From Candidatus Nitrosopumilus sp. SW (GTDB lineage Archaea; Thermoproteota; Nitrososphaeria; Nitrososphaerales; Nitrosopumilaceae): a DNA stretch of 64,000 nucleotides. How positions within the stretch are numbered: position 1 is the first letter of the stretch; each line of letters begins with the position of its first letter. The stretch covers positions 1,403,687-1,467,686 of the forward strand of contig NZ_CP035425.1 in assembly GCF_006740685.1 (NCBI RefSeq), given 5' to 3'. Below are positions 9,269 through 44,684 of the stretch, piece after piece. The notes beneath the pieces were generated by a model. It did not search any database. It had not been told where the DNA came from and saw nothing but the letters and a program-made list of their open reading frames with translations. A program made the translations under genes and the position numbers.

Positions 9269-10123
9269 TTGAATTTCTTTTTGATATCGATTAACCCTCT
9301 TGATGTATTCTTTTGGACCTTTCGTAGAAGCGAAAAAGACACTGTAAATCTTTACAATGCCTTATCACCTGTCATGCAACTTGCAACAGGTGGATCTATG
9401 CTAAATTTTGGATATTGGTCTTCTGAACACTCTGATCCAATATCTGCTCAGGAAAACCTATGTATGATTTTTGCAAATCTTGCTGAATTGCCTTCTGCCA
9501 AACATGTAGTTGATGTTGGTAGTGGTTTGTCTGCACCCTCTCATCTCTGGCAACAAAAATTCCCAAACATTCTCTTGTATGATGTAAACATCAATTATTC
9601 ACAATTGTCCTTAGGCAAAAAACAAAAAATTGAATTCCTGAATTCTTCGTCAACAAAACTTCCATTCGCAAATGATTCTGTAGATCGAGTTTTGGCCTTA
9701 GAATCTGCACAACATTTCAAACCTCTTTCTGATTTTATTTCTGAATCCAAAAGAGTACTAACAAATTCTGGATTACTCGTCATGGCCATTCCTATAACTC
9801 TTGGAACTTCATCTCTCAAAGATTTAGGGATGTTAAAATTTACTTGGTCTTCTGAGCACTATTCTTTGGATGATGTAAAAAACACAATAAAATCATCTGG
9901 GTTTGAAATTAATCAAGAGCAATTAATTGGAAATTTTGTATATGATCCTCTTGCAGATTATTATTTGACACATAGAGAACAACTCAAAAAATCTATTTTG
10001 GAAAAATATCCTGGCTATGTTGAAAATATACTATACAAATCAATCCTCAAAATGAAATCTGCATCTGAAAAAGGGATTATTGATTATGCTCTTCTAAAAT
10101 GTGTTCCAAAAACTAGACAATGA
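9269..10123 (+). CDS. SAM-dependent methyltransferase, class I
   Basis: The 284-aa protein has motif I VVDVGSGLSAPSHLW (about 80-94) and a motif II-like acidic end of strand 2 (LLYDVNINY). Post-I loops LPFANDSVDRVLALESAQHF and RVLTNSGLLVMAIP follow. The arrangement resembles small-molecule methyltransferases such as the tocopherol or sarcosine type. The reading frame begins with TTG (9269) and has no early ATG, so the start is uncertain. Its 3' end overlaps the convergent gene by 11 nt. The substrate is unknown. Confidence 0.75.
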   Translation: MNFFLISINPLDVFFWTFRRSEKDTVNLYNALSPVMQLATGGSMLNFGYWSSEHSDPISAQENLCMIFANLAELPSAKHVVDVGSGLSAPSHLWQQKFPNILLYDVNINYSQLSLGKKQKIEFLNSSSTKLPFANDSVDRVLALESAQHFKPLSDFISESKRVLTNSGLLVMAIPITLGTSSLKDLGMLKFTWSSEHYSLDDVKNTIKSSGFEINQEQLIGNFVYDPLADYYLTHREQLKKSILEKYPGYVENILYKSILKMKSASEKGIIDYALLKCVPKTRQ

Positions 10124-11207
10124 GAATTCTTTTTTCAATCATATATTCTAGGGCTTGAATGTATTCATCTTCTGAAGTCAATCCATCAGTAAACCACATG
10201 GCACTTGTTTTCCACCATGCAGGAATTTTTAGACCGTGATATTGCACTCCTTCTGATTTTTCAAATACGTTAGTTTGAAGTACTGATGTTTTTTCCCAGT
10301 TTGTTGTGATTTCAGTTTTCTCAAATTTTTCAGATAGTAAAAGTCCAGTTTGCTTGTCAATTACGATGACCTTGGTCTTGTCTTGATTTTCTGCAACCAT
10401 TCCTTCTCTTAAGAGATTACCAATTGGATAAGTTACAGTTCCATAGACTTGGTATTTTTCATTGATTACATCTCCTATTTCTATGGGTGCTTTATAGAGA
10501 AATTTTCCTGTTCTGCAACATTTTTCTTCAACTGGAATTCTTGAATCTTCATCAAGTAAAAACTGGTAATTTTTTATCCCTTCTTCTGAAACAATTCTTG
10601 AATTAATCATAATTCCATCAGCATTTATTTTTTCAACTTCAAATTTCTCTGTGATTGTATTTCCATACTTACTAGTGTGGGAATAAGTTACGTAATCTGT
10701 TTCTTTTACACACAACCCCTCAATGCATAATCTTTGACTGACATTATCTATTATCTTTGGAGAAATTATATTATTTTTTATCAGTGCCCTTACTCCATAT
10801 GCATATAGACTATCCTTGTATTTTCCATCTGTCCATCTAACCGTATCTTGGATTACCCAAGCTGGCATTGTGGTGAATTCTTCGAGATGCCTTTCTTTAA
10901 GGAAACTAGAATCCCCTAGATACTTTTCAATTTCTGCAATCAACACAATGTCTCTTGCTTGATGCGTACTGCTCCATGCAATATGGTTATACAAAATAGC
11001 ACACGCTCTCAGATTTGGATATTGGGGGTGCAGATCAATTAATCCATCTAGACCAAATATTTCGTATTCGTCATGAAAAAATTCACAGAACTTCAAAATA
11101 TCTTGAGGGGTTTGTACTGGAAAATCAGGCTGATGTGCAAATGTGCTTTGGGCACTAAAACTCCCTACTATTATCCCTGATATTATTAGAATTACTACAA
11201 TTTTCAA
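10113..11207 (-). CDS. Secreted protein with C-terminal Trp-rich repeat
   Basis: The 364-aa protein has a signal peptide (about 1-24, hydrophobic core VVILIISGIIVGSF). Its middle part carries several Cys, including an ECC-type pair (SRIPVEEKCCRTG). The C-terminus reads IPAWWKTSAMWFTDGLTSED and YIQALEYMIEKRILIV, one degenerate copy of the 'IP.W.K..A.WW..G.I.D..F..gi.YLIe..II' module. The same module recurs in the proteins at 18081 and 34124. It is likely exported and exposed. Function is unknown; the module may aid surface anchoring or protein contacts. Confidence 0.7.
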   Translation of the reverse strand: MKIVVILIISGIIVGSFSAQSTFAHQPDFPVQTPQDILKFCEFFHDEYEIFGLDGLIDLHPQYPNLRACAILYNHIAWSSTHQARDIVLIAEIEKYLGDSSFLKERHLEEFTTMPAWVIQDTVRWTDGKYKDSLYAYGVRALIKNNIISPKIIDNVSQRLCIEGLCVKETDYVTYSHTSKYGNTITEKFEVEKINADGIMINSRIVSEEGIKNYQFLLDEDSRIPVEEKCCRTGKFLYKAPIEIGDVINEKYQVYGTVTYPIGNLLREGMVAENQDKTKVIVIDKQTGLLLSEKFEKTEITTNWEKTSVLQTNVFEKSEGVQYHGLKIPAWWKTSAMWFTDGLTSEDEYIQALEYMIEKRILIV

Positions 11208-18080: not shown

Positions 18081-19520
18081 TTAACTCAATAAACAATATG
18101 CGTATGACGGTGTGAATGATGGATACATTATACTAGTTTTATCTTCTACATGTTTCAAACCTATAGAATGACCTAACTCATGTGTCATGATCGTTTCAAC
18201 ACTGTCTACATCATACAATTGGAAACTTCCATCACAATTGTAATCTCCTAATGTAACTTCTACAACTCCTTTACCTAGATGCGCATGTCCTAAAACTCCG
18301 TCTCCTATGTTTCGAACTACCCATGTTATCCAAACATTTGCTTCATGTTTCAAATTTGTAATCTCAAACTTCATTTTTGCTTTTTGATTGTTTGTTGACA
18401 ATTCTTGTTCTTCCCAAAATGCAAATGAATTACTTAGTGTACTTACATGATCTAATGGCAATCCTGAAGGCTGTTCATTGATGTAAACTTTGTAGTAGAT
18501 GATGTATGTGTCATCAATAACCTCGTACGTAGGATCTGGGAAACTACTAGATGCTTTTTTTACCTCTTCTTCAAAATTCCATTTTACATAATCTCTAAGG
18601 AATTTTTTGATTACATCTTGACTAGGATTTGGATATTCAATGTATCTTTTTTCTTTTGTAATGTTATTTGAAATATCTCTGAGATATTTTGTAAATAAAT
18701 AAAATTCGTGATCTAACTCTTCTTGTGTTTTTTCTACTGTGTCCTCTATTTTGATTGTGATTAATCCATTTTCTATCATGTATTGTATTCCTTGCACAAA
18801 TGCTTCATCTTCAATTTGACCATCTGCCCACCATCCTGCATTATTTTTTATCCATTCTGGGATTTTTTCCTCAGTAGTATTTTGGGTCTCCACTGGTGGA
18901 ATTTCAATAATTTTATTATTTATCATATATAGTAATGCTGAAACAAATTCTGAGTCATCAATGTTGTCTGTTGACCACCATTTTGCTATTGGTTTTACCC
19001 AATCTGGTATTGATGAAATTGCCTGTTTCTCTAATTCTTTGGGTTTTTCTGTTGGTGTGTATGGGTATTTTGAAACTACCTTGTCTACAAATTCCTTGTA
19101 ATTCTGTATGACTGTACTGTTTGGTCTTTCTTTAAGGGCCTTTTCAAAATATGATGTTGCTTCTTGATATTCTCCCAAGTTTCCAAATCCCACTCCCATT
19201 CCAGCTAATGATATGACGTCATTTGGTCTGTGTTGTAAAACCGTGAAGAACTGCTCTAAAGATTTTCTGTGATCTCCCATATTGCTGTGTGCTATTCCTT
19301 TCATCTTTAACGTGGAGATGTTGTTTGGTGCGATTTCTAGTATGTCATCATAAATTGTTATGGCTTGATTATAATTCCCATTAGAAAAAAACTCCATTGC
19401 TTGATTAAACATTATCTCTGGTTCCTCACTTGTTTGAGCAAATGAAACTCCTGCAATACTTTGTGTACTGAGTATACTGATTACTAAAAGACAAGAAATT
19501 TTTTTAAAATAATTTGACAT
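18081..19520 (-). CDS. Secreted TPR protein with two Trp-rich repeats and a metzincin protease domain
   Basis: The protein has 479 aa. A signal peptide (1-29) precedes about three TPR units (30-150, e.g. FNQAMEFFSNGNYNQAITIY). Two Trp-rich modules follow (about 167-205, IPDWVKPIAKWW; and 216-255, IPEWIKNNAGWWADGQIEDE). The protease domain ends with HELGHSIGLKH (447-457), the metzincin HExxHxxGxxH zinc site, and the Met-turn SIMYPS. Secreted processing of cell-surface or environmental proteins is likely. The combination of TPR, Trp-rich modules and a matrixin-like domain is unusual. It is monocistronic. Confidence 0.85.
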   Translation of the reverse strand: MSNYFKKISCLLVISILSTQSIAGVSFAQTSEEPEIMFNQAMEFFSNGNYNQAITIYDDILEIAPNNISTLKMKGIAHSNMGDHRKSLEQFFTVLQHRPNDVISLAGMGVGFGNLGEYQEATSYFEKALKERPNSTVIQNYKEFVDKVVSKYPYTPTEKPKELEKQAISSIPDWVKPIAKWWSTDNIDDSEFVSALLYMINNKIIEIPPVETQNTTEEKIPEWIKNNAGWWADGQIEDEAFVQGIQYMIENGLITIKIEDTVEKTQEELDHEFYLFTKYLRDISNNITKEKRYIEYPNPSQDVIKKFLRDYVKWNFEEEVKKASSSFPDPTYEVIDDTYIIYYKVYINEQPSGLPLDHVSTLSNSFAFWEEQELSTNNQKAKMKFEITNLKHEANVWITWVVRNIGDGVLGHAHLGKGVVEVTLGDYNCDGSFQLYDVDSVETIMTHELGHSIGLKHVEDKTSIMYPSFTPSYAYCLLS

Positions 19521-24599: not shown

Positions 24600-24782
24600 C
24601 TACTTTTTCTTGCTTCTTGGTTTTGTTCTAAGTACTGCTTTGCAACATATACATCTAGGATCATCTATTGCTAAGAAAATCCCACAAAATGTACATCTTT
24701 TTTGTCCAATCTCATATCTTATTTTATTTGGTGCTGGTCCTGCTTTGTGCATTTCACAAATACCTCTACATGTTCTACCCAT
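24600..24782 (-). CDS. 60-aa four-Cys zinc-finger protein in tfb2 operon
   Basis: The protein starts MGRTCRGICEMHKAG and carries a second set CTFCG...CICC, giving C-x3-C plus C-x2-C...C-x-C-C ligands. The basic tail RTKPRSKKK suggests nucleic-acid binding. The start at ATG 24780-24782 is set by GGAGGTGA (24788-24795), 5 nt upstream, which lies inside the last codons of tfb2. It is thus coupled to tfb2. Function unknown. Confidence 0.7.
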   Translation of the reverse strand: MGRTCRGICEMHKAGPAPNKIRYEIGQKRCTFCGIFLAIDDPRCICCKAVLRTKPRSKKK

Positions 24783-25686
24783 CAATTTCACCTCCTACTT
24801 TTTTCAGAATTTCTTTTGTCCTATCTCTGATTGTCACTGCACTAATTCCTGACACTTTTGAAATTTTTAACTGAGGTACCTTTTCCCCGTTTTTGATTGA
24901 TGCCAGATATACTGCAGCAGATGCCATTGCCATGGGATTTTTACTAGCTGAAACCCCGTTTCTTGCAGAAAGATCTAGAATTCTGTATGCTAATCTTTCT
25001 GCCTTTTCTGAAATATTTACAGACTTTGCAATTCGAGTTACAAATTCTGTTGGATGATAAATTTCTGGTGTAATGTCTAGTTCTCTTGAAAGAAATCTGT
25101 AAATTCTCTGAATGCTTTTTTTATTGACATTTCCTGCACTTGCGACATCTTGCAGTGTTCTTGGAGTATTTGTCATTCTGCATGTAATGTATATTGCAGC
25201 ACATAGCATCCCTGCAGTAGATCTTCCTGCAAGAATCTTTTTTGCAGCAATTTTTCTAAATAAATAAGCCGTTTGCTCTATGACTGGCTCTGGAAGTCCT
25301 AACTTTGCACCAATTCCATCAAGCATAGTGAATGCTTTTTGAAATGATTTGACAGAATTTGCTGAACGACTATTCCTATCCCACATTCTTAGGCGATAAA
25401 ACATTCTTCTGTTTTCACTTGACAATCCTCTTCCTGTTGCATCCTTATCTTTAGATTCTATGATGGTTGACAAACCCATGTCTATCATTTTCAATGAAAT
25501 TTTTCTTCCAACTCTACTATTGGTTTGATATTCTTCACTTGACATACCCAAACTTTCTGGACCACTATCTACAACTCTCTCAGATAAGACAGCACCACAG
25601 TTAGTACATGCAACTTCTCCTGTATTCAAATCCGTTATGACCTTGTTTTTTCTACAGGTCTTTTGATGGACAAGTTCTGTAATCAT
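24775..25686 (-). CDS. Divergent second TFB with defective first zinc knuckle
   Basis: The protein has 303 aa from the ATG at 25684-25686, which overlaps the preceding stop as TAATG; a GTG at 25698 is an alternative. The two cyclin folds and the recognition HTH (GISAVTIRDRTKEILKK) are intact. In the ribbon, C11, C27 and C30 align with the last three ligands of the canonical TFB. The first Cys is replaced by Gln8 with His7 next to it. The B-linker also differs (ESLGMSSEEYQTN). It lies downstream of a zinc-ribbon mini-gene and upstream of a zinc-finger gene. An operator-like motif precedes the operon. Confidence 0.9.
   Translation of the reverse strand: MITELVHQKTCRKNKVITDLNTGEVACTNCGAVLSERVVDSGPESLGMSSEEYQTNSRVGRKISLKMIDMGLSTIIESKDKDATGRGLSSENRRMFYRLRMWDRNSRSANSVKSFQKAFTMLDGIGAKLGLPEPVIEQTAYLFRKIAAKKILAGRSTAGMLCAAIYITCRMTNTPRTLQDVASAGNVNKKSIQRIYRFLSRELDITPEIYHPTEFVTRIAKSVNISEKAERLAYRILDLSARNGVSASKNPMAMASAAVYLASIKNGEKVPQLKISKVSGISAVTIRDRTKEILKKVGGEIDG
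24788..24795 (-). promoter_or_regulatory. Shine-Dalgarno site within the end of tfb2
   Basis: On the minus strand GGAGGTGA is a full match to the 16S tail and doubles as codons for the C-terminal Gly-Gly-Glu of TFB2. It fixes the start of the downstream zinc-finger gene at 24782. Confidence 0.75.
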
Positions 25687-25838
25687 TAGGCTCTCCACAA
25701 AAGAATACCGCAGTCTTCACATGAAATACCAAATTCGTATGAATCAATTTTCACATTTCCACAATGAATACAAATTCTTATTTCATTATTCTTAATTTTC
25801 AAATTATCGTTGTTTTTTTGAATTAGTTCTTGTTTCAT
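25686..25838 (-). CDS. 50-aa zinc-ribbon protein translationally coupled to TFB2
   Basis: The ORF starts MKQELIQKNNDNLKIKN and contains CIHCGNVKIDSYEFGISCEDCG, a clean C-x2-C...C-x2-C ribbon. Its stop overlaps the TFB2 start (TAATG), implying tight coupling. Because TFB2 lacks one zinc ligand, this stand-alone ribbon could be a partner supplying that function; that is inference. The TATA box CTTAAATAA lies about 20-30 nt upstream of ATG. Confidence 0.7.
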   Translation of the reverse strand: MKQELIQKNNDNLKIKNNEIRICIHCGNVKIDSYEFGISCEDCGILLWRA

Positions 25839-27229: not shown

Positions 27230-27262
27230 CACTATGTTTATTCTTTATCACTAGATAAATAT
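27226..27262 (+). promoter_or_regulatory. Tandem motif pair and TATA box before the FAD oxidoreductase
   Basis: TTAGCACTAT (27226-27235) and TTATCACTAG (27245-27254) are direct repeats 19 bp apart. The second touches the TATA box ATAAATAT (27255-27262), 20 nt before ATG. Confidence 0.8.
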
Positions 27263-27282: not shown

Positions 27283-28623
27283 ATGCCAAATGATGTTTTC
27301 ATAATTGGTGCTGGTGTGGGTGGGTTAACCACTGGTGCATTGCTTGCAAAGAAAGGATATTCTGTAAAAATCCTTGAAAAATCTTCAAAATTGGGGGGCA
27401 GAACTGCTTCATTACTGTATAAAAACCACATTTTGGATAATGGATTTCATATTATGCCCTTTTACAAAAAATCTGCAATTTTTGAAGTGTTGAAAAGCAT
27501 TGGAATTGAATCTAGATTAAAACTGGCAAAAGTGGATGACATTGCATTTCATTCTGATACTGGATTCCATAAATATCCTAAAGGAATGGGTGATTTACTT
27601 CAATTATCTTTAATTCCTATGAAGAGTAGAATACGCCTCCTTAAATTACTCCTTCCAATGGCATTTACTTCTATCAAAAAAACTGAAGAATGGGATGACA
27701 AATCTCTTACTGAAATAACTAAAAAATTAGATGATGACACAAAGGCCTTTTTTGAAGCCGTGTGCATGTTAGCTTTTGCTGATACTGCTGATCATATTTC
27801 ATTAGGTGAATTTGCAAGAACCATTATACGTGCAAATCCGTTTAAGGGTGGGACCAGCGAATTTGCATATCCAGATAATGGTGGATATGATTCAATTTCC
27901 CATGTCTTGGCAGACTATATTATTGAAAAAAATGGAAAAATCGAGACAAATCAATCTGTAAAAAAAATTGTAATTACTGATTCTAAAGTTACTGGTATTA
28001 TCACTAAAGATGATTCATTTTTTCCTACAGACTGTGTTGTAATTTCCTATCCGGCATATATGGCCTTAAATCAATTGTTTGATGAAGATATAATTGACAA
28101 AAAATTCATAGAAAAAATTAATCGTTTAGACAAAAAAACTGCTGTAGTCGAAGTTCATTTTGCATTGAATTCTAAAATCGATTCAAGACAAGTTGTTTTT
28201 CCTGTAGGGGAGCATTATGTTACAAAAGGAATATTTTTCATCTCAAACATTACCCCTTCTGTTTCTCCCTCTGGTGAACATTTGATAATTGCTGGTACTC
28301 CTGTAGACCCATCTGTCGCAGATGATTCTAAGAAAATTAAACAAATTGTACAATTGATGAAAACAGAAATTTCATCAATTTATCCAGACTTTAACTCATC
28401 TTTACTGTGGGAGAGGCCTATGGCTTGGAAATTAGTTGAATCTGTAGTAAAAGAGCCTGGGATGGTATGGAAATCAAAAATGCCTCACCAAATTCCAGGC
28501 ATAGAAGGCTTGTTTTTTGTAGGTGATTCTACTGTTAGTTATGGAATTGGAACTGATTCTGCAGCACATAGTTCCATTTTGTGTAGACCAAAGATTGAAT
28601 CTTTCCTTCAGGTCAAAAAATAG
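27283..28623 (+). CDS. FAD-dependent amine-oxidase/phytoene-desaturase-like protein
   Basis: The 446-aa protein has an N-terminal dinucleotide motif (VFIIGAGVGGLTTGALLAKK, about 5-24) and the FAD ribose/GG motif LEKSSKLGGRTAS. A C-terminal FAD segment GLFFVGDSTVSYGIGTDSAA is typical of carotenoid desaturases and protoporphyrinogen-oxidase-like enzymes. Whether it acts on carotenoids is unknown; no phytoene synthase is in the window. The tandem operator and convergent CarH-like gene tie it to the proposed light regulon. Confidence 0.85.
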   Translation: MPNDVFIIGAGVGGLTTGALLAKKGYSVKILEKSSKLGGRTASLLYKNHILDNGFHIMPFYKKSAIFEVLKSIGIESRLKLAKVDDIAFHSDTGFHKYPKGMGDLLQLSLIPMKSRIRLLKLLLPMAFTSIKKTEEWDDKSLTEITKKLDDDTKAFFEAVCMLAFADTADHISLGEFARTIIRANPFKGGTSEFAYPDNGGYDSISHVLADYIIEKNGKIETNQSVKKIVITDSKVTGIITKDDSFFPTDCVVISYPAYMALNQLFDEDIIDKKFIEKINRLDKKTAVVEVHFALNSKIDSRQVVFPVGEHYVTKGIFFISNITPSVSPSGEHLIIAGTPVDPSVADDSKKIKQIVQLMKTEISSIYPDFNSSLLWERPMAWKLVESVVKEPGMVWKSKMPHQIPGIEGLFFVGDSTVSYGIGTDSAAHSSILCRPKIESFLQVKK

Positions 28624-28624
28624 A

Positions 28625-29467
28625 TTAAATCTTTCTTAAAATTTTTGGAAGTTCCTCTAAACCACAATCTGGAATTATTGCACCTTCAAATTTTGGAATT
28701 TTTTTTGCTTGAAGTGCATATCCTCCAATTAACACTGGAATATCTGTATGTTCTTTGATTTTTTTAACTAGTCTTTGCCCTGCCATAAGATTATCTTCTA
28801 ATGTAATTGAAATGAAAACAACTTCCGGTTTATTATTGTCAATAAAACTAAGAATTGATTCAGTTGGCATTGAAACTCCCATATTGTAAACCTTGAATCC
28901 TTTAATCGAGAGATATGTTTCCATCACATCACATCCTAAACGATGTTCTTCTCCTATTGGCAAACAAATGAGGATCTTTTTCTTTTTTCCTGTACTTGAC
29001 ACCGTATCCATAATTATTTTGACAAGTGTTTGGGCAACGTTACTTGCAACATGTTCCGTAGCAATACTAATTTTTCCTGTGGCCCACTCGTCGCCAATTT
29101 TATACATTGTGGGTTTTAGAATTTTATCAAAAAAATCTGATGTATTAAATATTTTTATATATTCATCGTAAATTTTCATAGATTCTTGTATGTTACCTTC
29201 TGTTAATTTTTTGTATAATTGCTGTTTTGATTTTTTTGTAGCATCTTCTCTTTTCTTGATATCTTTTGGATTGTATAATGCTAAAACTGATAATACTTTA
29301 GGATCATTTCTGTAGTCTACTGGAATGTCATCTTTTACTACTTCGGATGCTTTTCCAAGATATTTGATAATTTCTTGTTTTGAAGTGCTCTTTTTTGAAT
29401 CCCAGATGCTTTTAACTAAATACAGGTATTGATCTGATTTTACTTTCTTTGCTCTTATGTATACCAT
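28625..29467 (-). CDS. B12-binding protein with CarH/LitR-type W-x9-EH cap motif
   Basis: The 280-aa protein has an N-terminus (1-45, YIRAKKVKSDQYLYLV..KQEIIKYLG) that resembles the basic hairpin at the N-terminus of some transposases; it is not MerR. The four-helix cap (about 80-155) has W128-x9-E138-H139, the signature of AdoCbl photoreceptors. The Rossmann B12 domain carries E173-x-H175-x2-G178 in place of D-x-H-x2-G. The residue after Trp is Ala129, where I recall Thermus CarH having His132. Its promoter carries a motif pair, so it may autoregulate. It could instead be a corrinoid methyltransferase partner, but no methyltransferase is nearby. Confidence 0.85.
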   Translation of the reverse strand: MVYIRAKKVKSDQYLYLVKSIWDSKKSTSKQEIIKYLGKASEVVKDDIPVDYRNDPKVLSVLALYNPKDIKKREDATKKSKQQLYKKLTEGNIQESMKIYDEYIKIFNTSDFFDKILKPTMYKIGDEWATGKISIATEHVASNVAQTLVKIIMDTVSSTGKKKKILICLPIGEEHRLGCDVMETYLSIKGFKVYNMGVSMPTESILSFIDNNKPEVVFISITLEDNLMAGQRLVKKIKEHTDIPVLIGGYALQAKKIPKFEGAIIPDCGLEELPKILRKI

Positions 29468-29484: not shown

Positions 29485-29523
29485 TGTTATATAACTAATG
29501 CTAACTCCATTTTCTAGTGGTAA
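29485..29523 (-). promoter_or_regulatory. Tandem motif pair and TATA for the CarH-like gene
   Basis: On the minus strand TTACCACTAG (29514-29523) and TTAGCATTAG (29495-29504) are 19 bp apart. The second directly precedes TTATATAAC (29485-29493), about 20 nt from ATG 29467. It suggests autoregulation. Confidence 0.8.
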
Positions 29524-29586
29524 ATTATCATTTAAGTGGATAATTTGTGATTCTTTATTCGTACATTGTTCAAAAATTATTATGAT

Positions 29587-29624
29587 TTGGCACTAGTAAC
29601 AATAATTATCACTAGTTTAAATAA
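29587..29624 (+). promoter_or_regulatory. Tandem motif pair and TATA for the 29681-31267 operon
   Basis: TTGGCACTAG (29587-29596) and TTATCACTAG (29606-29615) are 19 bp apart, followed at once by TTTAAATAA (29616-29624). A GGAG at 29668-29671 is the SD for ATG 29681, one of the few leadered mRNAs here. Confidence 0.8.
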
Positions 29625-29680: not shown

Positions 29681-29887
29681 ATGGATAAAACAATTCTTTT
29701 TACAGGCATTGCCTTGATTGGTCTTGGTGGTGGATTTTTAGCTGTACAAAACTTTGATGCATCACTACATTCAGCATTTGTCACTGGAGGATATCTCTGG
29801 TTAGGGATGGGTGGTCTAACAATTGCATTAGGTTTTAATGTCAAAAAAGAGAAACAAAACCCACAAATGATGGGAGCACTAAGATAA
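29681..29887 (+). CDS. Small two-span membrane protein, light-cluster operon
   Basis: The 68-aa protein has glycine-rich hydrophobic helices at about 5-22 (LFTGIALIGLGGGFLAV) and 33-52 (GGYLWLGMGGLTIALGF), with a basic tail. A clear SD (AAGGAG) lies 9 nt before ATG. The next gene starts directly after its stop. No family was recognised. Confidence 0.65.
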   Translation: MDKTILFTGIALIGLGGGFLAVQNFDASLHSAFVTGGYLWLGMGGLTIALGFNVKKEKQNPQMMGALR

Positions 29888-31267
29888 ATGGAACAAATGG
29901 TTTATCAATCTCCTACCTCTCATTACAAACCTTTTTCAATTTTGGTTACTGGTGCCACTGGTTTTATTGGCTCAAGATTAATTTCATCATTAGTTTCTTC
30001 TGGTTATACAGTAAAAGGTCTTAGTAGAAAACAATTACCTGGTAATGATAAAGTAAAATACGTTAAAGCAGATGTTTTCAATTTTGATGAATTAAAAAAT
30101 GCAATGGCTGGTATTGACACTGCATATTATTTACTTCACTCTATGGAAGGAGATAAAGGAGATTGGCAAGAATTTGCTAAAAGAGAAAAAATCCAAGCTC
30201 AAAATTTTCTTAGAGCTGCAACAGAGTCTGGTGTAAAACGAATTATCTATCTTGGCGGTTTAGTTAATGATGATCTTGATCTCTCCCCACATATGCGTAG
30301 TAGAAAAGAAGTTGGGGAAATTCTTGCATCAGGTGATATACCTGTAACTGAATTTAGGGCTTCTATAATTATCGGCGCAAAAGGTGGTTCTTATGCCATG
30401 CTTCGTTATCTTGTTGAAAGATTGAGGGTTATGGTTTGCCCATCTTGGGTAAAGTCCTTAGCTCAACCCATTGCAGTAGATGATGTAGTAGAATACCTTA
30501 CTAAATCTCTCTCAAAACCTGAAACTATAGGTAAGATTTTCGAGATTGGTGGTCCTGATAAAATAACTTATGAGGAATTAATGCGTGTTTATTCTGCATA
30601 TCTGAACAAGAATCTGTTTGTCATACAAATTCCATTTTTGACTACTAGACTATCGTCGTATTGGGTTGATCTTATCACTCCTGTTAAAGCATCACTTGCA
30701 AGACCTCTGATAGATAGTTTGGTTCATGATACTGTAGTTACTGATGATTCTATCACAAAAATTATTCCTATCCACCTAAAATCAGTTCGTGAAGCAATCG
30801 ATATTGCAACAAAAGAAATGAAATCAGATCCTCCTCAAATGGAACAAAGAGAGGAAAAAACAGGTTTCAAAATTAACCAAAAACTAATTCAAATTTCTCT
30901 ATTTGCATTAGCTGTAATCGGTTCAAGTTACTATTGGTTAGATGATAGAACTGATGTCTATGAACCACTATGGTTGATTGGTTCTGCAATTTGGTATGTT
31001 ACAATTGTATTTGCAATAATATTCATTCACAACAAAACTCGTTTGGGATACTTGATTGCAGGTGTGTTGTCTTGGATTACCTTGGCCTTCTGGTTGTTTG
31101 ATAACTACTATGTGTTGTTTGAAACATCACTGATTGCAAATCCTCCAAATGATTTGATGATCATAAGAAATTTTGTTGGCATCTTTGTAGTTATATTGAC
31201 TGTTATTGCATCTCACAACTTATTCCACAAGGTAATTGATTATCAATACAAAGGCAAACCAATATGA
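29888..31267 (+). CDS. NAD(P)-binding SDR fused to a four-helix membrane domain
   Basis: The 459-aa protein has residues 18-300 as an atypical extended SDR (ILVTGATGFIGSRLISSL; YLLHSMEGDKGDWQEF; RIIYLGGLVNDD), similar to the YbjT/complex-I-associated group. Residues about 330-455 contain four hydrophobic helices (LIQISLFALAVIGSSYYWL onward). The fusion would place a reductase at the membrane, perhaps acting on quinones or lipids. It is in an operon with the 68-aa membrane protein under a tandem operator. Confidence 0.8.
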   Translation: MEQMVYQSPTSHYKPFSILVTGATGFIGSRLISSLVSSGYTVKGLSRKQLPGNDKVKYVKADVFNFDELKNAMAGIDTAYYLLHSMEGDKGDWQEFAKREKIQAQNFLRAATESGVKRIIYLGGLVNDDLDLSPHMRSRKEVGEILASGDIPVTEFRASIIIGAKGGSYAMLRYLVERLRVMVCPSWVKSLAQPIAVDDVVEYLTKSLSKPETIGKIFEIGGPDKITYEELMRVYSAYLNKNLFVIQIPFLTTRLSSYWVDLITPVKASLARPLIDSLVHDTVVTDDSITKIIPIHLKSVREAIDIATKEMKSDPPQMEQREEKTGFKINQKLIQISLFALAVIGSSYYWLDDRTDVYEPLWLIGSAIWYVTIVFAIIFIHNKTRLGYLIAGVLSWITLAFWLFDNYYVLFETSLIANPPNDLMIIRNFVGIFVVILTVIASHNLFHKVIDYQYKGKPI

Positions 31268-34030: not shown

Positions 34031-34101
34031 TTACCACTAGTTTTGTTGGCCAGAATGATATTATTTAGCACTAGAAATATCAGTTACCACTAGCTTATAT
34101 A
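34031..34101 (+). promoter_or_regulatory. Divergent control region with three TTRNCACTAG copies
   Basis: TTACCACTAG at 34031-34040, TTAGCACTAG at 34065-34074 and TTACCACTAG at 34084-34093 are all on the plus strand. The last two are 19 bp apart and abut CTTATATA (34094-34101), the TATA of the 34124 gene. The first copy touches the ATG of the minus-strand DUF1722 gene. Confidence 0.8.
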
Positions 34102-34123: not shown

Positions 34124-35011
34124 ATGAAAACCGCAATAACTGCAATTGCCGCAATACTTCTAATTACTACCACTGTTTCTTCTGCACATGCAGAAGTTCC
34201 ATCCTGGGTAAAGAACAATGCAGGTTGGTGGGCCGATGGCTCCATTTCTGAATCTGATTTCCTAAAAGGAATTGAGTTTCTAATTAACGATGGAATAATT
34301 CAAGTTCCTCCAACAACTGTATCTTCACAATCCTCTGAAGGTGTTCCATCCTGGGTAAAGAACAATGCAGGTTGGTGGGCCGATGGAACCATTTCTGATG
34401 GTGAATTTGTAAATGGAATTCAGCATTTGATGTCTATGGGACTAATCACAGTTGCTTCAGCAGAACAAACTGGTGACCTCAAAAACACTGATTCAAAGTT
34501 AGCAGAATTAGAGGCCGAACTTGAGAAATGTTCTGAAATTACTAAAGCCTACAAACGACTTGATTGTGAAAAACCTATCAAACAAGCAATCAAAATACAC
34601 GAATACAAATCTAATGCTCAAAAATTTGACTTGGGACCAATTACCTATTATTGGACCGGACTTGGCTCTGAAGGAAATGAGTTTAAGATTACTGCTACAG
34701 GCCAACCTCTATTGTCAATTAGAATGCTTGCTGAGAACACCAGTTCTGAAATTGCTGCACTAAACTGTACTAGTCCACAAATATGTGCGTATGATGTATG
34801 GGATGGCTCAAAGGCCTTCAAATACTCTGGCATGGACTTTACTAGTGGACAAATTGTGTTAAATCCAGGAGATGCTAGAGAGTTTAACATTCTCTTTGGT
34901 CCAAACATTGGATATGGTGGAACCGAGTTTGAATATGATTCCTCAAAAGACTATGTCTTTAGAATCGCAGAAGACTTTGGCAGCGCAAATATTCCTCTAA
35001 ACATAGAGTAA
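34124..35011 (+). CDS. Secreted protein with two Trp-rich repeats, regulon member
   Basis: The 295-aa protein has a signal peptide (1-23, ITAIAAILLITTTVSSAHA). Two modules beginning VPSWVKNNAGWWADG follow at about 25-60 and 74-109, then a short coiled coil (about 125-140, Cys-bearing). The C-terminal half is beta-rich with four Cys. The coding DNA of the two modules shares an identical 44-bp block. Exported or surface role; function unknown. It sits behind a textbook tandem operator and TATA. Confidence 0.75.
   Translation: MKTAITAIAAILLITTTVSSAHAEVPSWVKNNAGWWADGSISESDFLKGIEFLINDGIIQVPPTTVSSQSSEGVPSWVKNNAGWWADGTISDGEFVNGIQHLMSMGLITVASAEQTGDLKNTDSKLAELEAELEKCSEITKAYKRLDCEKPIKQAIKIHEYKSNAQKFDLGPITYYWTGLGSEGNEFKITATGQPLLSIRMLAENTSSEIAALNCTSPQICAYDVWDGSKAFKYSGMDFTSGQIVLNPGDAREFNILFGPNIGYGGTEFEYDSSKDYVFRIAEDFGSANIPLNIE
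34196..34386. repeat. Identical 44-bp direct repeat inside the 34124 gene
   Basis: Positions 34196-34239 and 34343-34386 are identical, coding VPSWVKNNAGWWADG in both modules; flanking DNA has diverged. Identity at silent sites implies recent duplication or gene conversion. Confidence 0.9.
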
Positions 35012-37754: not shown

Positions 37755-38135
37755 TCAGATTACCTCGCTAAGTTTTTTTAATTTTTTTAAATTTGTAATT
37801 TCTATATCGTTACTTAATGTAACAATTTTTGCAAGTTTGGGATTTGCATCTTTGCCTAATTTCAATATGGTATCTCCTTGAAATCTAATTTCTAGTGTAA
37901 CATTTTCATTTTTGAGTTTTTTTGCCAGATTTTTTGCTTCAGATAATTGCTTTATGATTCCAGGTTTCTCTGACACTTTAATTGGAATATCTATTATGTC
38001 TAAAACTCTTAGGTTCTCTTTTGCTGAAAAATTTATTGAGGGCTCATTATTGCACTTGACACTCAAATTCCCATTTGATAAAGATAATAAAAAATTGGCT
38101 GAGAGATTGATTTTTTTCATTCTCACTAACCTCAC
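37755..38135 (-). CDS. Hypothetical protein coupled to the 61-aa gene
   Basis: The 126-aa protein starts at GTG 38135, overlapping the previous stop by 4 nt (GTGA), or at ATG 38120 (MKKINLSANF). It is beta-strand-rich at the start (LSVKCNNEPSINFSA), with a central helix (KQLSEAKNLAKKLKNENV) and strand-rich end. No domain was recognised. Co-regulated with the 38132 gene through the tandem motif. Confidence 0.55.
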   Translation of the reverse strand: MRLVRMKKINLSANFLLSLSNGNLSVKCNNEPSINFSAKENLRVLDIIDIPIKVSEKPGIIKQLSEAKNLAKKLKNENVTLEIRFQGDTILKLGKDANPKLAKIVTLSNDIEITNLKKLKKLSEVI

Positions 38136-38317
38136 TTTGCTGTAATTGTCAGCTTACCTGTTAGGGCAACTGTTCCTGTGGGGACAACTTTACCATTTTT
38201 TTCAACCTTGCCTTTCATCTCAAGATTGTCAAAATCATAAGTGATTGAGGCGTGTTTTTCTGTCAGTTTGTCAAATACTTCTGCAAGTAAATTTGCCCAT
38301 TCTTGCTCTTCTGCCAT
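38132..38317 (-). CDS. 61-aa small protein, first gene of motif-controlled operon
   Basis: The protein starts MAEEQEWANLLAEVFDKLTE, a helix followed by beta strands ending GTVALTGKLTITAK. The size and helix-strand layout recall amphi-Trp-like domains, but the match is weak. The leaderless-type promoter carries two motif copies 18 bp apart. Confidence 0.55.
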   Translation of the reverse strand: MAEEQEWANLLAEVFDKLTEKHASITYDFDNLEMKGKVEKNGKVVPTGTVALTGKLTITAK

Positions 38318-38337: not shown

Positions 38338-38374
38338 ATATTTAACATAGTGATAAATTTTCAACTAGTGCTAA
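38338..38374 (-). promoter_or_regulatory. Tandem motif pair and TATA for the 38132 operon
   Basis: On the minus strand TTAGCACTAG (38365-38374) and TTATCACTAT (38347-38356) are 18 bp apart, followed by GTTAAATATG (38337-38346). It overlaps the last codons of the photolyase gene. Confidence 0.75.
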
Positions 38375-39740
38375 ATTTTTTAAAAATATCTTTTGCTTTT
38401 TTTGATTCGACACTGTGTTCTACTATGGGGCTTGGATATTCTAATTTTTCAGGGAATTTTTTCCATAATTCATGAATAGTTTTACTAGGGACATCACTTA
38501 ATTCTGGAATCCATTTTTTAATATATTTGCAATCAGGATCAAATCGTTTTTGTTGAATCCATGGATTAAAAATTCTAAACCATGGTTGGGCATCACAACC
38601 TGTTGATGCAGACCACTGCCAATTCCCAACATTTACACATGTATCATAATCAATCAGTTTTGTACTGAAATATCTCTCCCCCCACCTCCAATCAATATGC
38701 AAGTCTTTTGTTAGAAATGATGCCACAATCATTCTGACTCTATTGTGCATCAGTCCTGTTTGATTTAACTCCCTCATACCTGCATCCACTATTGGAAATC
38801 CTGTTTCTCCGTTGGCCCATTTTGAAAATACTGATTTATCTTTTTTCCAGGGAATTTTTTGAAAATTTTTGATAAATTCTTTTGAATAACTTTGTGGAAA
38901 GTGATACATCAAATATGTAAAAAAATCTCTCCAAAAAAGCTCTGAAATGATGGTGTGATTTGCGCCTAGTTCTTTTTTACATTCTAGAAAAATTTCTCGA
39001 ATGGAACAAGTCCCAAATTTGTTATGTGCAGATAATAATGACGTTCCATTTTTTGCCGGAAAATCCCTTTCTGAATCATAATTTCTCAAATTTTTCAAAT
39101 TCTTTAGTAATTTTAAACATGAACTTCTACCTCCTGGCAGAAGAAATGTATTTTTTCTCTCTTCTTTTAAGAAATTTTTTGATGTACTTTCAAATTTAAT
39201 TTTTTGACGTGCAAAGTTTCCAAATTTGTATTTTTGTGGATTTCTGACTGGTAATTCTTTTGCCTTTCTAAAAAATGCTGAAAATACTTTGTAGGGTTCT
39301 CCCTTTATTGTCTTAATTGTATCTGGATCTTGTAATAATGAATCCTGAGTTAAAATAAAATCCATTTTGTTTTTGTGACATTTATTTCTGATTTTATTTT
39401 CTCTCTTTATGCTAAACGGTGTATAGTCTTTGTTCATAAAAATTGCATCAATTCTGATTTCTTTGATAATTTTTTGAATAACTTTTTCATAGTTTCCTGA
39501 AAAGAAATATAATTTTGATTTATTTTCTTTTAGTTGCGCATCTAAATCTGAGAGAGATTCTTTTAAAAATTGTAATCTGAATTCACTGAATTTTGGATTT
39601 GATTTTGAAATAATCTTTTCATCCCAAATGAAACATGGAAAAACTTTTGAAGAGAATTTTGATGCATTTATCAAACCTGTGTTGTCTTCAAGACGTAAAT
39701 CTCTTCTAAACAAAAACAGAGAATTTTGATATTTTCTCAT
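38361..39740 (-). CDS. phr: Deoxyribodipyrimidine photolyase, class I cryptochrome/photolyase
   Basis: The 459-aa enzyme repairs UV-induced cyclobutane pyrimidine dimers using blue light. The antenna domain begins LFLFRRDLRLEDNTGL. The FAD-binding domain has SELFWRDFFTYLMYHFP, GETGFPIVDAGMRELNQTG and NVGNWQWSASTGCDAQPWF, with the photolyase Trp-rich segments. NWQWSAS..CDA is a CPD-photolyase feature rather than cryptochrome-DASH. The start is ATG behind an AT-rich promoter. No motif pair was found directly upstream of this gene. Confidence 0.95.
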   Translation of the reverse strand: MRKYQNSLFLFRRDLRLEDNTGLINASKFSSKVFPCFIWDEKIISKSNPKFSEFRLQFLKESLSDLDAQLKENKSKLYFFSGNYEKVIQKIIKEIRIDAIFMNKDYTPFSIKRENKIRNKCHKNKMDFILTQDSLLQDPDTIKTIKGEPYKVFSAFFRKAKELPVRNPQKYKFGNFARQKIKFESTSKNFLKEERKNTFLLPGGRSSCLKLLKNLKNLRNYDSERDFPAKNGTSLLSAHNKFGTCSIREIFLECKKELGANHTIISELFWRDFFTYLMYHFPQSYSKEFIKNFQKIPWKKDKSVFSKWANGETGFPIVDAGMRELNQTGLMHNRVRMIVASFLTKDLHIDWRWGERYFSTKLIDYDTCVNVGNWQWSASTGCDAQPWFRIFNPWIQQKRFDPDCKYIKKWIPELSDVPSKTIHELWKKFPEKLEYPSPIVEHSVESKKAKDIFKKFSTS

Positions 39741-40818: not shown

Positions 40819-41364
40819 ATGGGAAAACACTATGAAGGTTTTGTCGGTAGTATATGGGATGAATTTCCTCAACTAGCCGAATGGCACGATGATGATCCTA
40901 AGTTACTTCAGAAGTGGAGTTTAGATAAATTCATTGAAGCAGGATATCATAACTTTCATGCAGAAAGAAAGCAATTATACCATATCAGTAAACTAATCGA
41001 AAACTATGCAAGAGATAATGAGCAACCACTACTTGCAACTTTTGAAACAATAGCTCGCTACAAATTTGTTGAAAATAGATACCAAAAATTAATTGAGAAA
41101 ATACCAAAAATTTGGGTTGTTGCAGACTATGGAAAAACAAGTCTTACAACTCCGCCAAAAATTGAAGTGATTAATTGTAAGGATACTGAACTTGTAGATG
41201 TTTGGAGTGTTATTACAAGAGGACCTTATGGTACATTTGGATTAATTGCAGAAGAATATGAAGATGGAAAATTTCGAGGATTTTTCACTCTAAATCAAAA
41301 TGTTTGTAGATTGGCAGTAAATTCCATGGGTAAAATTTTGGGGAAAAAATTCAGTCTTCAATAA
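40819..41364 (+). CDS. DICT-like sensory protein A
   Basis: The 181-aa protein has HISKLIENYARDNEQPLLATFE, YQKLIEKIPKIWVVADY and a final strand-rich part (FGLIAEEYEDGKFRGFFTLN). This resembles the DICT sensory domain, predicted from genome context to take part in light responses. No output domain is fused, so it may work in trans. It is a paralogue of the 42466 gene. TATA ACTTATATC (40789-40797) lies 22 nt before ATG; no motif copy was recognised for it. Confidence 0.65.
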   Translation: MGKHYEGFVGSIWDEFPQLAEWHDDDPKLLQKWSLDKFIEAGYHNFHAERKQLYHISKLIENYARDNEQPLLATFETIARYKFVENRYQKLIEKIPKIWVVADYGKTSLTTPPKIEVINCKDTELVDVWSVITRGPYGTFGLIAEEYEDGKFRGFFTLNQNVCRLAVNSMGKILGKKFSLQ

Positions 41365-42186: not shown

Positions 42187-42473
42187 TAGTACCCTCCAAC
42201 TCCTGAATGAGAAACTTTGGCAACTACCATACCGGATTCATCTCTATCTTGAATCTCACATTTTAGAAATGCATCTTGAGTACATTGCTTTAAAATTTCC
42301 ATGTTCCACTCTGACTCGTTGTGTGGTAATCCTGGAATATCTGCCTGAATTATTTTTATTTTTTCAACATCTGAATAATTTTCTTTATTGCCATTTTTCC
42401 TATGTGTGACATTTAAAATAAAAGAATTGGATGACAAAATGTCAGAGCCGTTTCCCCATATGATGTCAGTCAT
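42186..42473 (-). CDS. 95-aa small protein between DICT-like and oxygenase genes
   Basis: The protein starts MTDIIWGNGSDILSSNSFIL and ends KVSHSGVGGY. It is mainly polar with two Cys in the second half. Both ends overlap neighbours (8 nt with the DICT-like gene, 1 nt with the oxygenase), so all three are translationally linked. No family was recognised. It may be a partner or substrate of the oxygenase. Confidence 0.6.
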   Translation of the reverse strand: MTDIIWGNGSDILSSNSFILNVTHRKNGNKENYSDVEKIKIIQADIPGLPHNESEWNMEILKQCTQDAFLKCEIQDRDESGMVVAKVSHSGVGGY

Positions 42474-43044
42474 TTTCCATACCGTAAGATTTGTCGAAAT
42501 CTATTCGTATTTTTAGAGATTTTTCTGTACTTTTTATTGCCTTTCCAATTATGGATGGACTAATCGAAAAGAATCCTCTATAGATTCCATCTCCTATGTC
42601 TTCTGCGATAAGCCCAAATGGTCCATTTTCACCCTTTGTGAGTACCATCCAGATCTCTGATAGATTTGTTCCGTCACAACTTATTACTTCTGTATTCTTT
42701 GGGGGCTGAGGGGCCAATGAGGGATTATTGAAATTTCCTATAATCCAAACTTTTGGAATATCTTCTACTAATTCCATGTACCTGTCCTCAACATACTTGT
42801 ATCTCTTAGAAGTCTCAAATGTAGCTAAAAGTGGAACCTTGTGTTTAGCTGCATAATTTTCAAGAAGAATACTTAGTCTGTAGAGTTCTTTTCTACCTGT
42901 TTCAAATCTAACGTATCCTGCTTTTATGTACTCACTAAGGTGCCATAACAGATTATGATCAGTGATATCTGTTATTTCGACATCTGCAAGTTTTGGAAAT
43001 TCTTTTAGAATTTCATCCATCATACTTTTGTATTGTAATTCCAT
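42466..43044 (-). CDS. DICT-like sensory protein B
   Basis: The 192-aa protein is a paralogue of the 40819 product with the same core: RLSILLENYAAKHKVPLLATFE, YKYVEDRYMELVEDIPKVWIIGNF and FGLIAEDIGDGIYRGFFSIS. It leads the operon with the 95-aa protein and the 2OG-Fe(II) oxygenase. Its promoter has a motif pair. A light- or redox-sensing role is inferred from the domain resemblance and its neighbours. Confidence 0.65.
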   Translation of the reverse strand: MELQYKSMMDEILKEFPKLADVEITDITDHNLLWHLSEYIKAGYVRFETGRKELYRLSILLENYAAKHKVPLLATFETSKRYKYVEDRYMELVEDIPKVWIIGNFNNPSLAPQPPKNTEVISCDGTNLSEIWMVLTKGENGPFGLIAEDIGDGIYRGFFSISPSIIGKAIKSTEKSLKIRIDFDKSYGMEND

Positions 43045-43063: not shown

Positions 43064-43101
43064 CATATATAACTAGTGTCCATAAATTTTACTAGTGCCA
43101 A
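43064..43101 (-). promoter_or_regulatory. Tandem motif pair and TATA, minus-strand DICT operon
   Basis: On the minus strand TTGGCACTAG (43092-43101) and TGGACACTAG (43073-43082) are 19 bp apart, directly followed by TTATATATG (43064-43072), about 20 nt before ATG 43044. Confidence 0.8.
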
Positions 43102-43103
43102 TA

Positions 43104-43140
43104 TTACCACTAGAACAATAATTTATCACTAGTTAAATAT
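43104..43140 (+). promoter_or_regulatory. Tandem motif pair and TATA for the 43161 gene
   Basis: TTACCACTAG (43104-43113) and TTATCACTAG (43123-43132) are 19 bp apart and abut TTAAATAT (43133-43140), 20 nt before ATG. It is back to back with the minus-strand pair, so four copies lie within 68 bp. Confidence 0.85.
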
Positions 43141-43160: not shown

Positions 43161-43544
43161 ATGACCGCCCTAGTTCAAGAATCTAGAGAACAACATACTA
43201 GTGTAGAACCTTATTTTCATCAGTTCTTCCAGCAAGTTGTACAATCATTGCCACATGTAGATCCACAATTGTTGATCAAAGTCATGATGTTGGAGATGAA
43301 TCTTAAGGATTACATGGGAGCCAAAATTCCTCATGTCAACCTGTATGTCCAGTACAGGGAAGGAACTGACTTACAACAAAAACAAGAAGAAGGCAGAAAC
43401 AAGTATCCTATAGAGGTGACTGCATCAAAATGGGAAGATGGTGTAATCTTTTCAGGTTTGATGAGTATTAAAAATGTCGAGACTGTGTGTTCTGATCCTG
43501 ACATAGTAAAAGTTACTGGAAAAGCATCTCCTAGACACAACTAA
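43161..43544 (+). CDS. Hypothetical protein, regulon member
   Basis: The 127-aa protein has an N-terminal helix rich in Gln/His (EPYFHQFFQQVVQSLPHVDP), a Met-rich helix (LLIKVMMLEMNLKDYM) and a beta-rich end (VILFSGLMSI-type strand). No domain was recognised. The control region is the cleanest tandem operator in the window, so it is probably strongly regulated. Confidence 0.6.
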   Translation: MTALVQESREQHTSVEPYFHQFFQQVVQSLPHVDPQLLIKVMMLEMNLKDYMGAKIPHVNLYVQYREGTDLQQKQEEGRNKYPIEVTASKWEDGVIFSGLMSIKNVETVCSDPDIVKVTGKASPRHN

Positions 43545-43562: not shown

Positions 43563-43599
43563 TTACCACTAGGAACAATTTTTCCCACTAGTTAAATAT
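43563..43599 (+). promoter_or_regulatory. Tandem motif pair and TATA for the 43621 operon
   Basis: TTACCACTAG (43563-43572) and TTCCCACTAG (43582-43591) are 19 bp apart and abut TTAAATATC (43592-43600), 21 nt before ATG 43621. Confidence 0.8.
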
Positions 43600-43620: not shown

Positions 43621-43728
43621 ATGAGTTTGATCTCTGTATTTAAATGCAAAAATTGTGGAAAAGAATTTGAAGATTGGTCTTGTGATTTTTGTTACACAAA
43701 ATCTGTATTAGTGAAAATTAAGGTGTGA
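43621..43728 (+). CDS. 35-aa zinc-ribbon protein
   Basis: The ORF starts MSLISVFKCKNCGKEF and continues WSCDFCYTK: two C-x2-C knuckles 10-12 residues apart, a minimal zinc ribbon. It is the first gene after a tandem operator and overlaps the next gene if that starts at GTG 43725. It is probably expressed with the PNPOx-like protein. Confidence 0.65.
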   Translation: MSLISVFKCKNCGKEFEDWSCDFCYTKSVLVKIKV

Positions 43729-43730
43729 CT

Positions 43731-44165
43731 ATGCAAAAACTTGATAAACTGACTTTAGAATCCATTTTGTCTGACATCAAAATTCCCATTAGGATTGCTT
43801 TTTTAAAATCTGATGGAGTTCCCAATATTATCTCACTTTGGTATGAGCAAATTGGGGATAAAATTTACTGTGCAACACAAAAATCTGCAAAGGTTGTTTC
43901 ATATTTAGAAAAAAACCCTACATGTGGTTTTGAAATTGCATCTGATAAACCTCCGTACAAAGGAATCCGTGGAAGTGGCTCTGCAAAAATAATTGATGAA
44001 ATGGGTGAAGAAATTCTAAAGATTTTGATGAAGAAATATCTTGGAGATAAAGAGTCTACATTATCAAAAATACTGAAAAAAAATGTTAAAAATGAGGTTG
44101 CCATCGAGATTACTCCTCAACAAATATTTCATTATGATTATTCAAAGAGGATGAAAGATATCTGA
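43731..44165 (+). CDS. Pyridoxamine-5'-phosphate-oxidase-like flavin/F420 split-barrel protein
   Basis: The 144-aa protein (GTG 43725 adds two residues) has the split-barrel pattern IPIRIAFLKSDGVPNIISLWYEQIGDKIYCATQ and GIRGSGSAKIIDE, with a C-terminal VAIEITPQQIFHYDY. Such proteins bind FMN, F420 or heme; thaumarchaea encode several F420-linked versions. The substrate is unknown. It lies within a motif-controlled operon between two zinc-ribbon mini-genes. Confidence 0.8.
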   Translation: MQKLDKLTLESILSDIKIPIRIAFLKSDGVPNIISLWYEQIGDKIYCATQKSAKVVSYLEKNPTCGFEIASDKPPYKGIRGSGSAKIIDEMGEEILKILMKKYLGDKESTLSKILKKNVKNEVAIEITPQQIFHYDYSKRMKDI

Positions 44166-44303: not shown

Positions 44304-44340
44304 TTAGCACTAGAATCAAAAGTTTCCTCTAGGTTATATT
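44304..44340 (+). promoter_or_regulatory. Tandem motif pair and TATA for the 44370 gene
   Basis: TTAGCACTAG (44304-44313) and a weaker TTTCCTCTAG (44323-44332) are 19 bp apart, followed by GTTATATT (44333-44340). An SD GAGGAG lies just upstream of ATG 44370. Confidence 0.7.
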
Positions 44341-44369: not shown

Positions 44370-44684
44370 ATGCAACAAACCACACAAACAAAAACACCAC
44401 GGCTAAAATTCATGTTGATTTTGGCCGCAGCAACTTCAGTAATACTAGTTTTCACATTAACTCCTTGGAATATAGTTCCAACACTAGTTACTGAAGATGT
44501 ATCGGTCATTGCTGTTACTGATTATGGCTGTGTTGGTGAGTCTGTTTTAGGTCATTCTGTCGTTGTGGCAGATTGTAGTGCAGGTGTTGGAGATGTAGTT
44601 TCTGCAACATTTTATGTTCCTGCTATGGACCAAAACGGATACTATGACAGAATTGAGGCAAAATTAACAATGGTTAATCCTTAA
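44370..44684 (+). CDS. Small membrane-anchored exported protein
   Basis: The 104-aa protein has an N-terminal anchor helix (about 14-34, FMLILAAATSVILVFTL). The external beta-rich domain contains two Cys (TDYGCVGES and VADCSAGVGD) that could form a disulfide. An SD (GAGGAG) precedes the ATG by 5 nt, one of few leadered genes here. It is the last recognisable member of the motif regulon. Function unknown. Confidence 0.65.
   Translation: MQQTTQTKTPRLKFMLILAAATSVILVFTLTPWNIVPTLVTEDVSVIAVTDYGCVGESVLGHSVVVADCSAGVGDVVSATFYVPAMDQNGYYDRIEAKLTMVNP

Follow-up and report, generated by a model that had tools for sequence, protein, structure and literature searches.

The class I CarH/LitR regulators of Thermus, Myxococcus, and Bacillus combine a MerR helix-turn-helix with a C-terminal module made of a cap and a Rossmann B12 domain, and they act on direct-repeat operators, with three or four 11-bp repeats, which overlap the promoter. 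In CarH, the dark form, loaded with adenosylcobalamin (AdoCbl), is a DNA-binding oligomer that is released by light (PMC8156234). Typically for the CarH/LitR family, this dark assembly is a tetramer and comes apart upon illumination. The signature of light-responsive cobalamin domains (GxxW, EH, GxxH, and GxxxP) has been validated by spectroscopy and structure, and, even though Thermus CarH carries a His at position 132, the light-responsive CtMerR, SasPcob, and AbDPcob present Arg, Gln, and Tyr, respectively, at that location (PMC11796333, whose text does not mention archaea). In Thermus CarH itself, the H132A variant largely fails to fall apart in light (PMC10442372). In Pseudomonas, a light-induced LitR region groups a photolyase, a short-chain dehydrogenase, and an FAD oxidoreductase (PMC9758184). 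As to overall architecture, CtMerR of Chloracidobacterium (PDB 8JBS/8JBT) is a bacterial protein with a MerR-type N terminus, and the photocobilins SasPcob and AbDPcob (PDB 8J2W/X, 8J2Y) lack a DNA-binding domain; both carry a biliverdin-binding domain, to which AbDPcob adds a diguanylate cyclase.

Ammonia-oxidising archaea, which are regarded as light-sensitive, rank with the most abundant cells of the ocean. In the open-access papers searched, we encountered neither a light-sensing regulator described for this group nor any archaeal B12 photoreceptor, nor one with a DNA-binding module such as that described below. We analysed a stretch of 64,000 nucleotides from Candidatus Nitrosopumilus sp. 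SW (hereafter, the window), whose genome is a single contig of 1.5 Mb, and we interpret the B12-binding protein encoded there, with a probability of roughly 0.7, as an AdoCbl-dependent light-sensing transcription repressor of ammonia-oxidising archaea. This interpretation suggests that, in marine members of the group, photoprotection genes are controlled by light perceived through vitamin B12.

The B12-binding protein and its relatives

The reading frame of interest is real, starts with ATG, and is organized as follows:

28625..29467 (-), B12-binding one-component regulator of 280 aa, candidate archaeal light sensor (open reading frame list, Pfam, 117 distinct homologues, AlphaFold2)
29270..29467 (-), residues 1-66, basic beta-sheet module of three strands that takes the place of MerR and putatively binds DNA (conservation, AlphaFold2)
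29000..29236 (-), four-helix cap, residues 78-156, with G125xxW128 and E138H139 (Pfam, homologue alignment; PMC11796333, PMC10442372)
28628..28984 (-), B12-binding Rossmann domain, residues 162-280, with G172xxH175 and G197xxxP201 (Pfam, homologue alignment)

Pfam recognizes the cap (B12-binding_2, residues 82-152, E=9e-11) and the Rossmann domain (B12-binding, residues 172-251, E=7.7e-11) and no other domain, and the protein ends after the latter, so that the biliverdin-binding and diguanylate cyclase domains of the photocobilins are absent. All four motifs of the light-responsive signature are present (G125-W128, E138H139, G172-H175, and G197-P201). An earlier note on this DNA, made from the letters alone, had claimed a W-x9-EH motif in the cap, an E-x-H-x2-G motif in the B12 domain, and an alanine after the Trp, and we could recognize each of them, as W128-x9-E138-H139, E173-x-H175-x2-G178, and Ala129. 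W128, E138, H139, and H175 match W131, E141, H142, and H177 of CarH, His175 being the predicted lower cobalt ligand.

Among the 117 distinct homologues, W128, E138, and H139 are each kept in 114, G172 and H175 in all, and P201 in 116; GxxW, EH, GxxH, and P201 are complete in 114, and the Gly of GxxxP varies among relatives. Ala129 occupies the place of the His that ligates cobalt in the light state of Thermus CarH; in most homologues this residue is A, S, E, Q, D, V, K, or R, and in none of the 117 is it His. Hits with E of at most 1e-10 occur in 143 of the 300 sampled Nitrososphaeria genomes, and about 100 genomes hold a genuine relative; some of the weakest hits, whose best E is about 1e-11 to 1e-14, are methionine synthases, for instance the 840-aa reading frame of L002 in the window's own genome. 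No viral copies were found.

The same note had proposed a CarH/LitR-like B12 photoreceptor and had named, as the outcome that would refute it, methyltransferase corrinoid proteins as best homologues. With a family profile of 18 members, the top solved chains are the photocobilin structures 8j2x/8j2w (SasPcob; 82 bits), followed by CtMerR 8jbs (70 bits) and AbDPcob (66 bits), with the trimethylamine corrinoid protein (59 bits) and methionine synthase (58 bits) behind the photoreceptors. CarH is the best NCBIfam model (NF052513 equivalog, 61.9 bits, below its cut-off of 400), and MtgC (44 bits), pyl_corrinoid (43 bits), and MetH (42 bits) all remain far under their family cut-offs. The structure comparison with CarH proposed in the note agrees: the AlphaFold2 model of the 280-aa protein (mean pLDDT 89.8) has CarH, CtMerR, or photocobilin structures as all of its 50 best PDB fold matches. 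The refuting outcome was thus not encountered, and the photoreceptor candidate is supported by profile and fold ranking, with cofactor binding, light response, and DNA binding inferred.

A single-sequence phmmer search ranks methionine synthase first, above CarH, so that the closeness to photoreceptors is visible only by family profile or fold. That ranking is what could be said for a methyltransferase corrinoid protein or an orphan B12 carrier, a reading to which we give almost no credence, since it has against it the profile and fold searches, the conserved N-terminal module with its operator linkage, and the absence of any recognized methyltransferase gene next to the B12 gene. In its specific form of a corrinoid methyltransferase partner (METHYLTRANSFERASE partner), it is ruled out by the profile and fold ranking.

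Compared with the class I CarH/LitR proteins, the archaeal photoreceptor candidate shares the C-terminal cap and Rossmann module with GxxW, EH, and GxxH, a direct-repeat operator overlapping the promoter, and a photoprotection-type neighbourhood. Different from them, it is an archaeal protein without the MerR helix-turn-helix, never has His after the Trp, and faces an archaeal TBP/TFB promoter with operator units of 10 bp and a period of 18-19 bp. With CtMerR it has in common a B12 domain of the light-responsive kind that lacks the His132 equivalent (Arg there, Ala here), and the photocobilins are its nearest solved B12 domains by profile and by fold. Since it has neither a MerR domain nor an 11-bp operator and scores below the family cut-off, the protein, which works like CarH as far as its inferred light function goes, is placed outside the CarH/LitR family, as a variation on the known B12 photoreceptors.

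The N terminus had been described in the note as a small basic hairpin-like segment other than MerR; it has no Pfam match, and AlphaFold2 predicts three antiparallel strands (residues 2-9, 12-23, and 28-39) and a helix (56-65) with a pLDDT of 93. Residues 1-66 are the most conserved part of the family, with invariant R5, K7, Y14, L17, V18, W22, Q31, Y36, L37, G38, and P49, and searches of Pfam, NCBIfam, PDB sequences, and Foldseek gave no significant match for the module. Its DNA binding is inferred from its basic character, from its position in the place of MerR, and from the operator evidence. A suspected resemblance to the start of IS1634-type transposases could not be confirmed. As a separate observation, a weaker form of the module (KGQTYYYLEHSIRDGKKVQKKEIYLGRKIP) starts archaeal Fic-family proteins (for example, G040 and L226), which carry a Fic instead of a B12 domain; a related beta-sheet module fused to a Fic domain occurs in Nitrosopumilaceae proteins of about 300 aa (L226, L227, L228, and L233), and the weaker form also begins short proteins of genome G532.

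Tandem operators and the genes behind them

The operator unit TTA(G/C)CACTAG is repeated every 18-19 bp, and its last copy abuts the TATA box. Aligned sites read TTA(G/C)CACTAG, about nine AT-rich bases, TTA(N)CACTAG, an immediate TATA-like TTWAWATA, and an ATG about 25-30 bp further on. In a spacing histogram drawn from 934 kb of loci around the B12 gene, same-strand CACTAG pairs peak only at spacings of 18 and 19 bp (17 and 45 pairs, respectively; 62 in all), with 1 to 7 pairs at other spacings. A position weight matrix (PWM) trained on the sites of other genomes gave nine tandem sites in the window, with scores from 22.6 to 43.3 (threshold of 20); the next-best candidate reached 11.7, and ten Markov shuffles produced nothing above 11. 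All nine lie between 27.2 and 44.4 kb, and pattern searches at one mismatch yielded no other convincing site genome-wide (hits were not inspected singly, except for a one-mismatch match at 730953, inside an apparent transporter gene). Chance as the origin of the operator was considered and is ruled out by a reversed-pattern control, the shuffles, and the spacing histogram. The sites, found by PWM and pattern searches, are these, with the PWM score for some of them:

27230..27254 (+), CACTAT-N13-CACTAG before the FAD oxidoreductase
29495..29538 (-), B12 gene's own promoter: CACTTA (29538-29533), CACTAG (29519-29514), and CATTAG (29500-29495) in 19-bp steps, then TTATATAA (29494-29487)
29591..29615 (+), CACTAG-N13-CACTAG abutting the TATA-like TTTAAATAA, promoter of the divergent 29681-31267 pair (score 43.3)
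34069..34093 (+), before 34124-35011 (score 41.6)
38347..38370 (-), CACTAG-N12-CACTAT between the photolyase and 38132-38317 (score 36.9)
43073..43097 (-), CACTAG-N13-CACTAG before 42466-43044
43108..43132 (+), before 43161-43544, within 43104-43140
43567..43591 (+), upstream of 43725-44165, with a long leader
44308..44332 (+), CACTAG-N13-CTCTAG before 44370-44684

The tandem operator that the earlier note saw in the gene's own promoter is there, in a somewhat degenerate form (CACTAG and CATTAG, with CACTTA as a third unit); the stronger pair, at 29591-29615, is that of the divergent gene, and 43161-43544 is driven by the site at 43104-43140, which the note suggested for binding assays.

The proximal CACTAG occupies the BRE position, and in each promoter a second, equally conserved copy lies 18-19 bp upstream without a TATA box. 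Repression is favoured by the proximal repeat, which abuts the TATA box, since a protein bound there would keep TFB away. The distal unit lies just upstream of the BRE, the usual binding place of archaeal activators, and it is conceivable, though in our opinion unlikely, that a B12 light sensor on these same sites is an activator that sits upstream of the core promoter and recruits TFB/TBP, its activity being turned on or off by light; the proximal unit, where a bound protein should clash with TFB, and the precedent of bacterial CarH, which represses on overlapping promoters (PMC8156234), speak for a repressor instead.

To define the targets of the putative repressor, the first genes behind sites across genomes were counted as distinct sequences. 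The B12 gene itself has 30 distinct sites; the other members in the window, and the neighbouring photolyase, are listed below:

34124..35011 (+), predicted secreted protein without Pfam hit, the most frequent regulon member (45 distinct sites)
29888..31267 (+), NmrA/SDR-type NAD(P)-binding protein with a C-terminal membrane part (Pfam; 26 sites)
42466..43044 (-), protein with weak DICT sensory-domain likeness in relatives, all scores under the Pfam cut-off (17 sites)
38132..38317 (-), 61-aa conserved protein behind the 38347-38370 operator (10 sites)
27283..28623 (+), FAD-dependent amine-oxidase/CrtI-like oxidoreductase (Pfam Amino_oxidase E=6.8e-30; NCBIfam PRK07233/HpnE/CrtI-like; 6 sites)
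44370-44684, gene behind the 44308-44332 operator (6 sites)
29681..29887 (+), 68-aa small membrane-like protein, first gene behind its operator (open reading frame; 5 sites)
43161..43544 (+), 127-aa regulon protein (3 sites)
43725-44165, weakly Pyridox_ox_2-like protein (3 sites)
38361..39740 (-), DNA photolyase/cryptochrome family, without an operator of its own

The neighbourhood parallels the Pseudomonas LitR region in the kinds of genes (PMC9758184), with orthology not established. Two further observations concern these genes: 40819-41364 and 42466-43044 are paralogous, with sub-threshold DICT likeness, and one of them stands behind an operator; W-rich repeats such as SWVKNNAGWWADG are common to the secreted-looking proteins encoded at 34124-35011, 18081-19520, and 10113-11207.

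Distribution of gene, operator, photolyase, and TFB

We searched the 300 Nitrososphaeria genomes mentioned above for the exact tandem, CACTAG-N13-CACTAG. Among the Nitrosopumilaceae, it occurs in 64 of the 82 genomes bearing the B12 gene and is missing from the other 18, versus 5 of the 88 lacking the gene (p=5e-24), the latter frequency being at the chance level, which we estimate at about 0.1 per genome. In the window's genus, the counts are 34/43 with the gene and 0/28 without it, not counting one genome in which just a fragment of the gene is present, at a contig edge. The association persists upon stratification by genus (z=8.3), with significant contrasts within genera g1, g2, g4, g8, and g12, and its recurrence within most genera indicates that it is not one inherited block. 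Furthermore, a tandem with at most two mismatches is found in the promoter of the B12 gene itself for 54 of 70 homologues, as against some 4% of random stretches. It mostly precedes the start codon by 33-36 nt, typically by about 34 nt, and this site is also seen in families f2 and f3 of the same order. The predicted link between protein and DNA is supported by co-occurrence and by the autoregulatory site, in the absence of binding data; they do not prove that the B12 protein itself touches CACTAG.

The photolyase is encoded in 32 of the 82 gene-bearing Nitrosopumilaceae genomes versus 1 of the 88 gene-lacking ones. As a direct target it was rejected, since of 19 loci examined, 18 have no tandem site in front of the photolyase; the exception (L161) has a two-mismatch site. 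The single photolyase-bearing Nitrosopumilaceae genome without a detected B12 gene, G110 (C69, C89), contains one exact tandem operator, and its B12 gene may be missing from the 120-contig assembly.

The same promoters could also be regulated in response to cobalamin supply or to redox or oxygen state, sensed through B12, with no physiological part for light. B12 domains do serve redox and cofactor sensing too, the bis-His ligand is absent at position 129, and the photolyase is missing from many gene-bearing genomes. Nevertheless, we regard this as improbable, considering that 114/117 homologues retain the Trp/Glu-His set for adenosyl binding that characterizes proven light-responsive domains, that the photolyase is almost confined to gene-bearing Nitrosopumilaceae, and that no cobalamin-synthesis genes were found among the targets.

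A further gene travels with that of the candidate light sensor:

24775..25698 (-), TFB (TFIIB-like initiation factor)

In most Nitrosopumilus carriers, an orthologue of this TFB (at least 64% identity) is encoded 1-6 kb from the B12 gene. In the complete genome G052, which presents the gene and two tandems, the best TFB is only 42% identical, and in genus g2 (G003 and G082), where gene and operator are present, the TFBs are only 44-46% identical and the neighbouring loci contain no TFB orthologue; it follows that the TFB is not needed for the operator. The company of the TFB and the BRE position of the proximal unit would fit CACTAG as the recognition element of TFB 24775-25698, with the B12 protein acting on the TFB or elsewhere and not on DNA. 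This is very improbable in view of the second copy without a TATA box in each promoter and of G052, G003, and G082, and, as a sole explanation, the operator as the TFB's own element is ruled out by G052, which keeps gene and operators without the orthologue.

The constant company of the TFB may instead mean that it is a dedicated initiation factor for the regulon. Starting from the repressor interpretation, one could tentatively imagine, as a possibility that we doubt more than we believe, a two-part light-controlled module of basal transcription, in which the B12 photoreceptor, with its PDB-unmatched beta-sheet head on the BRE, competes with the dedicated, co-travelling TFB, so that light switches TFB access to the photoprotection regulon.

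Predicted mode of action

In the dark, the cap and Rossmann domains would hold AdoCbl, with His175 below the cobalt and Trp128 and Glu138 around the adenosyl group, and the C-terminal domains would keep the protein oligomeric. The N-terminal beta-sheet modules could then bind the direct repeats TTA(G/C)CACTAG every 18-19 bp, so that the proximal one, at the TFB contact site beside the TATA box, would block initiation. Green or blue light would break the Co-C bond, the adenosyl group would leave, the assembly would loosen, and about nine promoters, that of the B12 gene included, would open. The domain make-up, the signature, the operator grammar, the autoregulatory site, and the association of the gene with operator and photolyase are established at the level of sequence comparison. 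We infer, on the other side, that the protein binds AdoCbl, contacts the operator directly, changes its oligomeric state, represses in the dark, and is released by light; dark binding and light release are expected by analogy with CarH (PMC8156234). AdoCbl should be available, since methylmalonyl-CoA mutase and MeaB are encoded in the window and ammonia-oxidising archaea, which acquired cobalamin synthesis, are inferred cobalamin makers (PMC7554672).

With His never found at position 129, the bis-His form of Thermus CarH is not expected in the light state, which should rather be like that of CtMerR, with water or hydroxide on the cobalt. The missing ligand does not exclude light sensing, as CtMerR, SasPcob, and AbDPcob respond to light without His132; the poor disassembly of Thermus H132A indicates that the output step may differ in the archaeal protein.

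If the proposal is true, archaea would have a B12 photoreceptor whose operator and targets are defined and whose DNA-binding domain is not of the MerR type and has no counterpart among solved folds. A single protein and a single DNA of 40 bp would suffice for a direct test of how ammonia-oxidising archaea perceive light, and a possible green-light switch of new architecture would be at hand for optogenetics.

Lastly, some copies of the protein diverge in the residues discussed above. In L050 (7501-8265(-)), L055, and L069, the N-terminal module is kept, the Trp/Glu/His set is lost, and the own promoter has no operator; these copies are possibly B12-independent regulators and, by analogy only, recall the B12-independent CarA paralogue of Myxococcus. 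Second divergent copies lie about 3 kb from the photolyase in G065, G125, and G171.
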